From Archangium lansingense (GTDB lineage: Bacteria; Myxococcota; Myxococcia; Myxococcales; Myxococcaceae), in contig NZ_JAPNKA010000001.1 of the NCBI RefSeq assembly GCF_026626635.1, forward strand, positions 3,844,001 through 3,908,000: 64,000 nt of DNA, in the 5' to 3' direction. A program made the translations under genes and the position numbers. Positions 44,737 to 47,836 of this stretch are shown piece after piece; positions within the stretch are counted from its first letter, which is position 1, and each line of letters opens with the position of its first letter. The notes beneath the pieces are model-generated. The model searched no databases. It was not told the DNA's origin and was given only the letters and a program-made list of their open reading frames with translations.

Positions 44737-44814
44737 GACCGTGTCCGCTTTTTTCGGGGCATTTCGTTGTACGGGTGAATGCTCCAGGAAACCTCATGCC
44801 TCCTTTCTCCCACC

Positions 44815-45333
44815 ATGAGCGCGCCACCTCGTGAAGGCGCGTCGGCCACGGTCACGGCCGCCTATCGCCAGTACTTCCCCCTGGTCCAGTCCAAGTGCGC
44901 CCGGGCCCTCGGTGACGCGGCGGAGGCGGAGGAGGTGGCCCAGGAGACCTTCATCCGCTTGTGGCGCTCCGGCATGGCCGGGAAGCCCTCGCGCGAAGTG
45001 GTGGCCTGGCTGTACCGGGTGAGCACGCGGCTGCTGATCGACAGGCTGCGGGTCCGCCAGCGCCGCCAGCCGGTGGAGATGTCCGCCGCGCTCCAGGACA
45101 CCACCGCCCACCCCTCGCCCAGCATCGAGTCCGTGCTCCAGGTGCGCCAGCACCTCCAGTCGCTGGCCTCCAGCCTGCCCGCAGAGGAGCTCGAGGTGGC
45201 GCTGCTGCACCGGCTGGACGGCCTCACCCAGTCGGAGATCGGCGAAGTCACCAGCCTGTCGGATCGCACCGTGCGCCGCATCCTCACCCGCCTCGAGGAG
45301 CGGCTGGGGCCCTGGCGTGAGGAGGAACGATGA
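44815..45333 (+). CDS. ECF sigma factor of the caspase operon
   Basis: A 172-residue RpoE-like sigma factor. Region sigma2 has YRQYFPLVQSKCARALGDAA, then EAEEVAQETFIRLWRSG. Sigma4 has EELEVALLHRLDGLTQSEIG, then EVTSLSDRTVRRILTRLEER as the DNA-binding helix. The start is ATG 44815; an in-frame ATG at 44779 would add 12 residues. Its stop overlaps the anti-sigma start (ATGA), and that gene overlaps the caspase gene the same way, so all three are coupled. A direct link to cell-surface stress is likely, with release from the membrane anti-sigma as the switch. I cannot assign the ECF group, and no clear own promoter is seen. Confidence 0.92.
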   Translation: MSAPPREGASATVTAAYRQYFPLVQSKCARALGDAAEAEEVAQETFIRLWRSGMAGKPSREVVAWLYRVSTRLLIDRLRVRQRRQPVEMSAALQDTTAHPSPSIESVLQVRQHLQSLASSLPAEELEVALLHRLDGLTQSEIGEVTSLSDRTVRRILTRLEERLGPWREEER

Positions 45334-46019
45334 GCACCTCGCACCCTTCCTTCCTGGCGCTGGATCGCGCCGCCCTCGGGGACATGACGGAGGAGGTGAA
45401 GGCCCACCTGGCCTCCTGTCCTCGCTGTGCCGGGCATGTCGACGCCGTGGGACGGCCTCCGCCGGTTCCCTCCTGGGCCGTGGCGCTCGCCAACGAGACG
45501 CCCCGCCCAACCTCGTTCCTGGCTCGCCTGGCTCCCTGGGGCGTGGCGGCGCTCGCCGCGAGTCTCGCGTTGGTGCTCTGGGTGCCTCGTGAAGCGGAGA
45601 CGCCCCGGGCTCCCATGGTGGGCCTGCGCAGCAAGGGCAACCCGGCGGTGGCCCTCTACGTGAAGACCGGGGACACGGTGCGCCTGTGGGACGGCGAGTC
45701 TCCGGTGGCCGAGGGGGACCTGCTGCGTCTCAAGGTCATGCCCGAGGGCTTCACCCGGCTCACCGTGGCCGCGGCCGAGGGGGACTCCTGGCAGGTGCTC
45801 CACGAGGGCCCGGTGCCCGAGCGGGGTGAGACGCTCCTGCCCATGAGCTGGCGGGTGGAGCCCGGTGAGCAATCCGAGCGACTCCTCATCGTACTCAGCC
45901 ACGCGCCCGTCCCCACCGAGTCCCTGGCCTCACTCCACGAGGAGCCCGCGCGCACCGAGTCGCTGTGGGTTCTCCCGCTCACCCTTTCCAAGCCCTCTTC
46001 GAAGCCCATTTCGCCATGA
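45330..46019 (+). CDS. Zinc-finger anti-sigma factor, single-pass membrane protein
   Basis: A 229-residue protein coupled to the ECF sigma gene. Residues about 18-38 hold the ZAS/zf-HC2 motif as VKAHLASCPRCAGHVDAV (His-x3-Cys-x2-Cys), which in anti-sigma factors grips the sigma factor. A transmembrane helix follows (WGVAALAASLALVLWVP, residues about 68-85). The outer part (about 145 residues) is beta-rich and has no family, perhaps a periplasmic sensor (LYVKTGDTVRLWDGESPVAE, EGDLLRLKVMPEGFTRLTVA). The gene ends inside the caspase start (ATGA). Confidence 0.85.
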   Translation: MSTSHPSFLALDRAALGDMTEEVKAHLASCPRCAGHVDAVGRPPPVPSWAVALANETPRPTSFLARLAPWGVAALAASLALVLWVPREAETPRAPMVGLRSKGNPAVALYVKTGDTVRLWDGESPVAEGDLLRLKVMPEGFTRLTVAAAEGDSWQVLHEGPVPERGETLLPMSWRVEPGEQSERLLIVLSHAPVPTESLASLHEEPARTESLWVLPLTLSKPSSKPISP

Positions 46020-47836
46020 ACGCACTTCTTGCCCTGACACTCGTTGCCCTCAGCGCCGCCCCGCTCGACACTGGCTCCCCGCACGTGCAGCGCCTGGCGG
46101 TGGTGGTGGGTGCCAACCGTGCCGCCCCGGGACGCGTGCCTCTGCGGTACGCGCATCGGGATGCGCACAACCTCGCCTCCGTCCTCGTCGAGGCCGGTCA
46201 GTTCTCCCGTGAGGACGTCGTCGTGCTGGAGGACCCTGAGCCCTCGCGTGTCCTCGCCGCGCTGGACTCCCGGCTGGAGCGGCTCGGGAAGGAGGGCCGT
46301 GAGGGTCTGCTGCTCTTCTACTACTCGGGCCACTCGGACGAGCAGGCGCTCTATCCCAACGGCCAGCCGCTGGAGCTGAAGGCGCTCCGGACTCGGCTGG
46401 AGGATGGGCGGGCCGCGGTGCGCGTGGGCATCCTCGATGCCTGCCAGGGAGGGAGCTGGACGCGGGCCAAGGGGCTCTCCGCGGCGGCCCCCTTCTCGGT
46501 GGAGGTGCCCCTGGGCCTGTCCAGTGAGGGCTCGGTGCTGCTCGCCTCCAGCACGGGACAGGAGGCCTCGCACGAGACGGATGCGCTCCAGGGCTCCTTC
46601 TTCACCCACCACCTGGTGGCGGGCCTGCGCGGCGCGGCGGATGAGGGAGACGACGGACAGGTGACGGTGGGCGAGGCCTTCGCCTATGCCCAGCGCCTCA
46701 CCATCCGCGACACCTCGCTGCACGGCGAGGCGGTGCAGCACCCCAGCTTCGACCTGCGCCTGCGCGGGCGGCAGGACCTGCCCCTCACCCGGCTGGCCAG
46801 CGCCAGCAGTACGCTCGAGGTGCGGCAGGAGTTGGGTCCGCTGCAGGTCATCCAGCTCCACTCGGGACTGGTGGTGTTGGAGGTGCCCGAAGGGCGGCGT
46901 GCACTGCGCATGGCCCTGCCCGTGGGGCCCTACCTGGTGCGCCGCAGGACGCCGGAGGGGACGTTCGCCCGGGAGCTCCAGGTGGAAGCCGGCAAGACGG
47001 TGACGGTGCACGAGGAGAACCTGGAGTTGGTGGGAGCCCCGGGGCTCGCCGCCAAGCGCTACTCCCGGCCGCTGGCCGCCACCCTCACCACCCTCCCGGC
47101 GGGCACCCACGCGGTGAGCCTGACGGCGGCGGTGGGCTACAACGAGCAGCAGGTGGGCCCGGAGCCGGGTGTGACTTCCAGTCCACCGCACCTGACGCTC
47201 GGCTATCGCGTGGGTTTGACGGATCGGCTGGAGCTGACCGTGGGGGGCTTGCCCTCGGTGAAGCTCAACAGCCTGCAGCGTGTGTCCGTGGGTATTCCCA
47301 CGCCGACGCTCTCCTACCGCCTCGGGGAGGCCGGCCGGTCCGAGTGGGTGCCCTACCTGAGGGGGTCGCTCTCCCCCGAGATCGGCGCCTTCTCGTTGAA
47401 TGCGGGCCTGCGGACGCGGTGGTGGTTGTCGGACTCCAGCAGCGTGCATGGGGTGGTATCGGTCGCCCAGACCTTCTTGACCTCCAAGGTCCTCGCGCCC
47501 GATGGGACCCTGGTGGACCTCTGGTTCTACCCGTCGCCTTCGGCGGGAGCCGCGTACTCCGTGACGCTGGGCGAGGTGGTGACCCTGTCCCTCGGCCTTA
47601 TGGCCACGGTCAAGATCGATAATTACGCCGAGCTCGGCGCGGATGGCACCTACTACGGGTCGAGGATCGGCGCCAACGTGGGGCTGAGCATCGGAGGTGG
47701 CTATGGCTCCTTGTTCCCGCTCCTGTCCGTCCACCTCAACGATGTCTGGTCGCTCACGGGTGACGCCTCCGTGTACTTTGCGGCGAAAGATGTCATGTCG
47801 ACCCGCTTCAGTGCCGGCGTGCTCGCCACGTTCTGA
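46016..47836 (+). CDS. Secreted caspase-like protein with C-terminal outer-membrane beta-barrel
   Basis: A 606-residue exported protein. Residues 1-18 form a signal peptide (MNALLALTLVALSAAP). Residues about 22-250 are a caspase/metacaspase (C14) p20-like fold: HVQRLAVVVGANRAA and PLRYAHRDAHNLASVLVEAG, the His in FYYSGHSDEQ (His106), and the catalytic Cys in ILDACQGGSW (Cys143). Residues 250-360 look like PEGA-type beta repeats (VIQLHSGLVVLEVPEGRRAL). The last 220 residues alternate short strands typical of an outer-membrane barrel (LTLGYRVGLTDRLELTVGGL) and end in Phe (FSAGVLATF), the usual Omp signal. Bacterial caspases cleave partner proteins in defence or cell death. This one would act at the cell surface or periplasm. 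It is controlled by the coupled sigma/anti-sigma genes. Confidence 0.8.
   Translation: MNALLALTLVALSAAPLDTGSPHVQRLAVVVGANRAAPGRVPLRYAHRDAHNLASVLVEAGQFSREDVVVLEDPEPSRVLAALDSRLERLGKEGREGLLLFYYSGHSDEQALYPNGQPLELKALRTRLEDGRAAVRVGILDACQGGSWTRAKGLSAAAPFSVEVPLGLSSEGSVLLASSTGQEASHETDALQGSFFTHHLVAGLRGAADEGDDGQVTVGEAFAYAQRLTIRDTSLHGEAVQHPSFDLRLRGRQDLPLTRLASASSTLEVRQELGPLQVIQLHSGLVVLEVPEGRRALRMALPVGPYLVRRRTPEGTFARELQVEAGKTVTVHEENLELVGAPGLAAKRYSRPLAATLTTLPAGTHAVSLTAAVGYNEQQVGPEPGVTSSPPHLTLGYRVGLTDRLELTVGGLPSVKLNSLQRVSVGIPTPTLSYRLGEAGRSEWVPYLRGSLSPEIGAFSLNAGLRTRWWLSDSSSVHGVVSVAQTFLTSKVLAPDGTLVDLWFYPSPSAGAAYSVTLGEVVTLSLGLMATVKIDNYAELGADGTYYGSRIGANVGLSIGGGYGSLFPLLSVHLNDVWSLTGDASVYFAAKDVMSTRFSAGVLATF

Follow-up and report, generated by a model that had tools for sequence, protein, structure and literature searches.

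We analysed a 64,000-nucleotide window (the whole stretch of DNA under study) from the 13.8-Mb genome of an Archangium-type myxobacterium, Archangium lansingense. It contains a three-gene operon that encodes an extracytoplasmic function (ECF) sigma factor, a membrane anti-sigma factor and an exported caspase-fold protein with a predicted C-terminal beta-barrel. We consider it likely that the operon works as a proteolytic signalling switch in which the exported caspase serves as a site-1 protease dedicated to its own anti-sigma factor. This reading builds on what is present in the sequences: the linkage of the genes, the catalytic dyad, S1-type residues, a Lys/Arg-Gly (K/R-G) motif shared by a loop of the protease and the periplasmic stalk of the anti-sigma factor, and covariation of loop and stalk at positions P1 and P3 of that motif. 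The features concerned are as follows.

44815–45333, plus strand: ECF sigma factor, 172 amino acids (Sigma70_r2, E = 1e-14; sigma70-ECF TIGR02937 above its cut-off)
45330–46019, plus strand: membrane anti-sigma factor, 229 amino acids, with a zinc-finger-like N terminus, one transmembrane helix and a periplasmic beta domain (zf-HC2, E = 2.5e-4; hydropathy; AlphaFold2 predicted local distance difference test (pLDDT) 87)
45528–45584, plus strand: transmembrane helix of the anti-sigma factor, residues ~67–85 (hydropathy)
45633–45638, plus strand: K102-G103 (LRSKG), predicted cleavage site in the periplasmic stalk (K/R-G conservation; AlphaFold2)
46016–47836, plus strand: exported caspase-barrel protein, 606 amino acids (Peptidase_C14, E = 7e-11; AlphaFold2; Foldseek)
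46088–46780, plus strand: caspase domain, residues ~25–255, with H106 at 46331–46333, C143 at 46442–46444 and putative S1 residues D49, S104 and D141
46469–46474, plus strand: K152-G153 (TRAKG), predicted self-cleavage site in a flexible loop after the catalytic Cys (K/R-G conservation; AlphaFold2 disorder)

The two predicted cleavage sites carry a common motif, usually T-R-x-K-G in the caspase loop and R-x-K-G in the stalk. In 180 of the 181 unique caspase sequences, K/R-G is found in the loop, nine residues past the catalytic Cys. In the anti-sigma factors, Lys-Gly shortly outside the transmembrane helix is invariant in a first set (63/63) in which most other positions vary, and it recurs in new loci outside that set (Spirochaetota, 12/12; Fibrobacterota, 10/10; most Myxococcota). 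As a control, transmembrane partners of caspase-less ECF sigma factors were taken from the same genome; 1 of these 15 has KG in its stalk region, versus 4 of 4 caspase-linked partners. The linker from membrane to KG varies from ~9 to 91 residues, and KG always borders the periplasmic beta domain. In the AlphaFold model, K102-G103 of the window anti-sigma factor lies in coil, after disordered residues 89–100 and just before the first strand.

Loop and stalk change together. We read stalk residues from an unbiased alignment column and removed duplicates, leaving 156 unique pairs and 181 unique caspases; six rows (four unique pairs) in which the column holds no clear K/R were excluded from the P3 and contrast tests and scored as mismatches in the P1 count. 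Of the unique pairs, 152 of 156 share the P1 residue (K/K in 125, R/R in 27); at caspase identity below 70%, all 91 readable pairs agree. A divergent caspase clade, which includes a copy at 0.42 Mb of the source genome itself, has Arg in the loop, and Arg is also found in every readable partner anti-sigma factor. Independently of this clade, one locus on the branch of the window protein (L123) switched from Lys to Arg in both proteins; on the tree, each protein has two changes at P1, and these coincide. A possible third R-type case, L127, was dropped, its anti-sigma gene being missing, probably through an assembly deletion. In the commonest solution, Arg at P3 gave nine independent contrasts, all concordant; some solutions had one discordant contrast. 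Positions P2, P5, P2' and P3' match no better than shuffled pairs, and P4 weakly at most. Covariation at P1 and P3 is the pattern expected of S1 and S3 subsites. In one locus, L281, the P1' Gly has been lost from loop (SRA) and stalk (ARS) alike.

Matching also holds operon by operon. Within single genomes, P1 agrees in 41 of 41 cognate pairs versus 104 of 126 non-cognate pairs, and P3 in 36 of 41 versus 73 of 126. Because cognate pairs exceed non-cognate pairs inside the same genome, genome-wide composition does not explain the matching. These comparisons and P3 carry much of the weight, because P1 has switched only twice.

The proposed specificity has a basis in the protease itself. The Peptidase_C14 match spans residues 26–209 (42.6 bits versus a Pfam cut-off of 21.4), and in a motif alignment with metacaspases D49, S104 and D141 fall on the proposed S1 residues D95, S156 and D211 of TbMCA2, which predicts cutting after Lys or Arg. 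The H106/C143 dyad, D49 and D141 are kept in all 181 unique relatives; S104 is present in 156, and the other 25, nearly all of the Arg clade, have Ala.

From these features we infer cleavage itself, together with the order of events, an envelope signal, outer-membrane topology, a site-2 step and autoregulation. The anti-sigma factor would hold the ECF sigma factor at the inner membrane. The caspase, a putative Lys/Arg-specific zymogen of metacaspase type, would be exported to the periplasm, where its barrel would probably anchor it to the outer membrane. An envelope signal would lead to self-processing at K152-G153, and the caspase may also free itself at K347, in the linker before the barrel. 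It would then cut the anti-sigma stalk at K102-G103 as the site-1 cleavage, after which a site-2 protease would free the sigma factor; this factor probably activates its own operon.

Several observations weigh against this reading. Only two independent origins of the Lys/Arg difference are available, and P1 alone is weak evidence. Some pairs break the motif rule (L122 and L078, PKSG; L140, IKSG), one clade (L137, L145 and L187) yielded no K/R-G, and the divergent caspase of L048 is paired with a stalk KG and has none in its own loop. L265 (3292–4628) has an ECF sigma factor and a KG-stalk anti-sigma factor, followed by a secreted-protein-like gene, but the 12 kb examined there contain no caspase; a caspase encoded in another operon may act on this anti-sigma factor. 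Nor does the switch depend on the barrel, and the tether is variable, as some family members (L064 and L071 type) have a tetratricopeptide repeat (TPR) tail in place of the barrel. Finally, K102-G103 keeps a constant position with respect to the periplasmic domain, which leaves some room for a structural role.

Among the alternatives, the one that survives best, although we think it improbable, is that the stalk motif acts as a pseudosubstrate that binds the active site and keeps the caspase inactive at the inner membrane, with the real targets elsewhere and the anti-sigma factor reporting or controlling the state of the protease. A common motif and covariation at P1 and P3 demand only shared binding, not cutting. 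Yet the stalk motif lies in coil beside a disordered stalk, as a cleavable site would, a basic P1 followed by Gly at P1' suits metacaspase cleavage, and site-1 cleavage of anti-sigma factors is an established pathway whereas such a lock is not.

Decidedly less probable is a third, trypsin-like periplasmic protease that would cut both the caspase loop, as activation, and the stalk, leaving the caspase as merely a sigma-dependent output. Both sites are basic-Gly in exposed segments, but K-type and R-type pairs are matched operon by operon in one genome and P3 covaries within operons, and a shared protease would not maintain such matching. We give slightly less credence still to structural coincidence, in which K/R-G would serve separate fold needs of the DUF4384-like domain and the caspase loop with no functional link between them. 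The distance from the motif to the C terminus is nearly constant in the anti-sigma factors, and the DUF4384 anti-sigma factor of L265 retains KG with no caspase nearby; against coincidence stand the concerted K-to-R switches, the covariation at P3, an unlinked caspase (L046) that lacks the loop KG and an unrelated papain-like protein (L238) that has DUF4384 with no KG before it (n = 1).

Least probable is the predation, defence or programmed-death device under envelope-stress control that an earlier sequence-only reading had proposed: the caspase fold, its export and the many copies in predatory myxobacteria would fit, and PMC3501461 also raises the idea of death, but PADLOC gives only a weak generic caspase match (E = 2e-5) with no partner model, the family is present in the non-predatory Fibrobacter and Treponema, and the partner that conserves the motif is a regulator rather than an effector. 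The genes that flank the operon are housekeeping-like, with no toxin, pore-former or defence genes among them, and we rejected the defence reading on the PADLOC result and these neighbours. The evidence from the operon points instead to a proteolytic signalling switch.

The remaining features of the caspase protein are listed here.

46016–46060, plus strand: signal peptide, residues ~1–15 (hydrophobic N terminus read from the sequence)
46640–46675, plus strand: EF-hand-like loop inside the caspase region, residues 209–220 (DEGDDGQVTVGE), with putative calcium binding
46781–47032, plus strand: beta-rich domain, residues ~256–339, with no Pfam family (AlphaFold2 strands)
47054–47056, plus strand: K347, basic residue in the disordered linker before the barrel, possible release site (conservation; AlphaFold2 disorder)
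47108–47833, plus strand: C-terminal 12-strand beta-barrel, residues 365–606 (AlphaFold2 strands in 365–605; Foldseek)

The sequence-only reading had described a signal peptide, the His106/Cys143 dyad and a C-terminal Phe, all of which are present; hydrophobic N termini like that of the window protein occur in nearly all caspase relatives. AlphaFold2, given an alignment of 14 sequences (the window protein and named relatives; mean pLDDT 76), predicts 12 C-terminal strands behind a caspase fold and a beta-rich domain; residues 151–168, right after Cys143, and 340–356 are disordered. A Foldseek search of the PDB with this model returned caspases and the 12-strand barrels FapF, NanC and a COG4313 channel. 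The C-terminal third is accordingly predicted to be a barrel and not a soluble fold, and its 12 strands, its matches to 12-strand barrels and its terminal Phe are those of an outer-membrane beta-barrel. The caspase is probably tethered to the outer membrane, and the suggestion of an exported caspase fold and outer-membrane barrel with their own ECF sigma and anti-sigma pair has held up as a prediction. The PEGA-like repeats ascribed to the middle of the protein have no Pfam match, and we dropped that label for the beta-rich domain. In classical type V autotransporters, a helical linker threads a 12-strand barrel and the passenger is at the surface. The window protein has 12 strands, its linker (residues 340–364) is modelled as coil, and most relatives have only ~170–200 C-terminal residues, too few for a type V translocator.

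The position of K347 is K or R in 177 of the 178 caspases that have a residue there, and an attractive idea is that the barrel may retain the protease at the outer membrane until cleavage here sets it free. In the EF-hand-like loop, D209 is kept in 179, D213 in 171 and E220 in 178 of the 181 unique relatives. Calcium control of the caspase is plausible, because this loop is conserved and metacaspases often require calcium (PMC4357240).

In the anti-sigma factor, the zf-HC2 score of 21.5 falls just under the curated cut-off of 22.2, and the HxxxCxxC motif is present as HLASCPRC. Foldseek with the anti-sigma model gave weak immunoglobulin-like matches, none with E < 0.001. The periplasmic beta domain is DUF4384 in some anti-sigma factors of the family, and DUF4384 is also fused to some orthocaspases (PMC8283722). 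The window sigma factor consists of sigma regions 2 and 4 only, which, beside a membrane zinc-finger-type anti-sigma gene, is the composition of an ECF sigma factor paired with its anti-sigma factor. Two more sigma-70 region-2 matches lie on the minus strand of the window, at ~2154 and ~18095 (genome coordinates 3846154 and 3862095).

The three genes are joined, as had been described, by two ATGA overlaps: the sigma gene runs to 45333, past the anti-sigma start at 45330, and the anti-sigma gene runs to 46019, past the caspase start at 46016. The closest named relative at the locus is Archangium violaceum Cb vi76, with a caspase protein that is 78% identical over its full length. The arrangement had been thought unusual and perhaps undescribed. 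Instead, it belongs to a large multi-copy family: of 195 Myxococcota genomes searched, 161 carry caspase homologues (several per genome), 53 of 59 near relatives have them, and the source genome has about nine members, most with sigma and anti-sigma genes. Among 79 parsed neighbourhoods, 61 have the order sigma–x–caspase, 2 sigma–caspase and 3 caspase–sigma, 1 is a fused frame and 12 are other. An ECF sigma gene adjoins the caspase in 71 of 76 evaluable loci (from 80 named loci in GTDB genomes of Myxococcota, Fibrobacterota and Spirochaetota). As the whole 13.8-Mb genome has only 60 sigma-70 region-2 matches, this conserved order is far above chance.

Variants of the arrangement were also seen. 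In L052 (5980–7860), a caspase-TPR protein and an ECF sigma factor share one unbroken frame in an apparent fusion; in its relatives L064 and L071, caspase and sigma are two adjoining genes in the order caspase, sigma, anti-sigma. One orthologous group (L045, L055, L060 and L076) has anti-sigma and caspase genes with no adjoining sigma gene, and L045 keeps both loop and stalk KG. The divergent caspase of L048 (5866–7515), from the source genome, has a lipoprotein-type signal (LLTVLAAC). In many relatives, a lipoprotein-like gene of ~318 amino acids with no Pfam family (L044, 7571–8527) lies ~13 bases 3' of the caspase gene.

Upstream of the sigma gene lies a candidate control site.

44742–44769, plus strand: candidate autoregulated promoter, TGTCCG-N16-TCGTTG (conservation; putative function)

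The footprint is kept in four orthologous loci, one of which has a different upstream sequence, and in full it occurs once in the genome at up to three mismatches, which suggests autoregulation by the sigma factor. The general ECF promoter consensus was found in 1 of 69 operons, below the shuffled mean, and no promoter motif common to the family emerged. A genome search for further TGTCCG-N16–18-TCGTTG sites gave about as many matches as the reversed control allows. A second TGTCCG-N-TCGTTG site, also present in two sister genomes, lies 5' of a lipoprotein-like gene (G000:C1:4200528–4200555) and is possibly a regulon member or a chance match.

The linkage of sigma and caspase genes is itself already known. 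The operon section of a 2012 paper (Asplund-Samuelsson et al., PMC3501461) reports sigma-70 genes in four of five Myxococcus xanthus metacaspase contexts and sigma-70/metacaspase operons in M. xanthus, Anaeromyxobacter, Haliangium, Sorangium, Ralstonia and Fibrobacter. These show the same association of caspase homologue and sigma factor as the window and very likely represent the same family; that section deals with sigma factors only, and we found in it no mention of an anti-sigma factor, a shared cleavage motif, a substrate or a barrel. Metacaspases prefer Arg or Lys, have acidic S1 residues and frequently depend on calcium (PMC4357240). The window caspase shares sequence homology, the His/Cys dyad and the acidic S1 residues with type I metacaspases and orthocaspases (TbMCA2, Yca1 and cyanobacterial proteins). 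Those already known either are cytosolic or lack an identified substrate, whereas proteins of the window family are exported, with a predicted cognate substrate encoded in the same operon.

Control of an ECF sigma factor by a caspase-like protease has been proposed from gene context for ECF54 sigma factors with CHAT-domain neighbours (PMC8999054), a likeness to the control proposed here. In the Craspase/DiCASP system (Csx29–Csx30–CASP-sigma), a CHAT caspase-family protease cuts an inhibitor and thereby relieves an ECF-type sigma factor (PMC10028731), as is predicted for the window system. Craspase is cytoplasmic, RNA-activated and CRISPR-linked, with a non-homologous architecture, whereas the window protease is exported and has no CRISPR association. 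Beyond Craspase, we found no report in the open-access literature of a metacaspase that cuts an anti-sigma factor, and the prediction of the anti-sigma stalk as substrate appears new.

Another functional parallel is the DegS–RseA–sigmaE pathway of Escherichia coli: in the window system, too, a membrane anti-sigma factor with a periplasmic domain is predicted to release an ECF sigma factor once a dedicated protease in the periplasm has cut it. Whereas DegS is an inner-membrane-anchored serine protease, the window protease is a caspase-fold cysteine protease that is encoded in the operon, is probably tethered by a barrel and has a predicted basic-Gly site. A caspase-fold counterpart of DegS/RseA site-1 proteolysis is the best explanation of the sequence evidence. 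We advance only tentatively the wider proposal that exported caspases across at least three phyla form a class of operon-encoded, specificity-matched site-1 proteases, in which the barrel serves as a tether or assembly sensor that prevents the protease from reaching the inner membrane before self-release, and many switches, such as K-type and R-type ones, run in parallel, insulated from each other, in one cell.

Complex bacteria have many caspase homologues, which are usually discussed as death proteins; to our knowledge, the natural substrates of these proteins are mostly unknown. If the proposed switch is true, it would give hundreds of bacterial caspases a role, namely to open an ECF sigma switch from the periplasm, and with it a substrate and the site at which they cut. 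A caspase-fold class would join the site-1 proteases, with insulated orthogonal protease–substrate pairs of Lys and Arg types within one cell, and a signalling use of the caspase fold that does not involve death may be ancestral.

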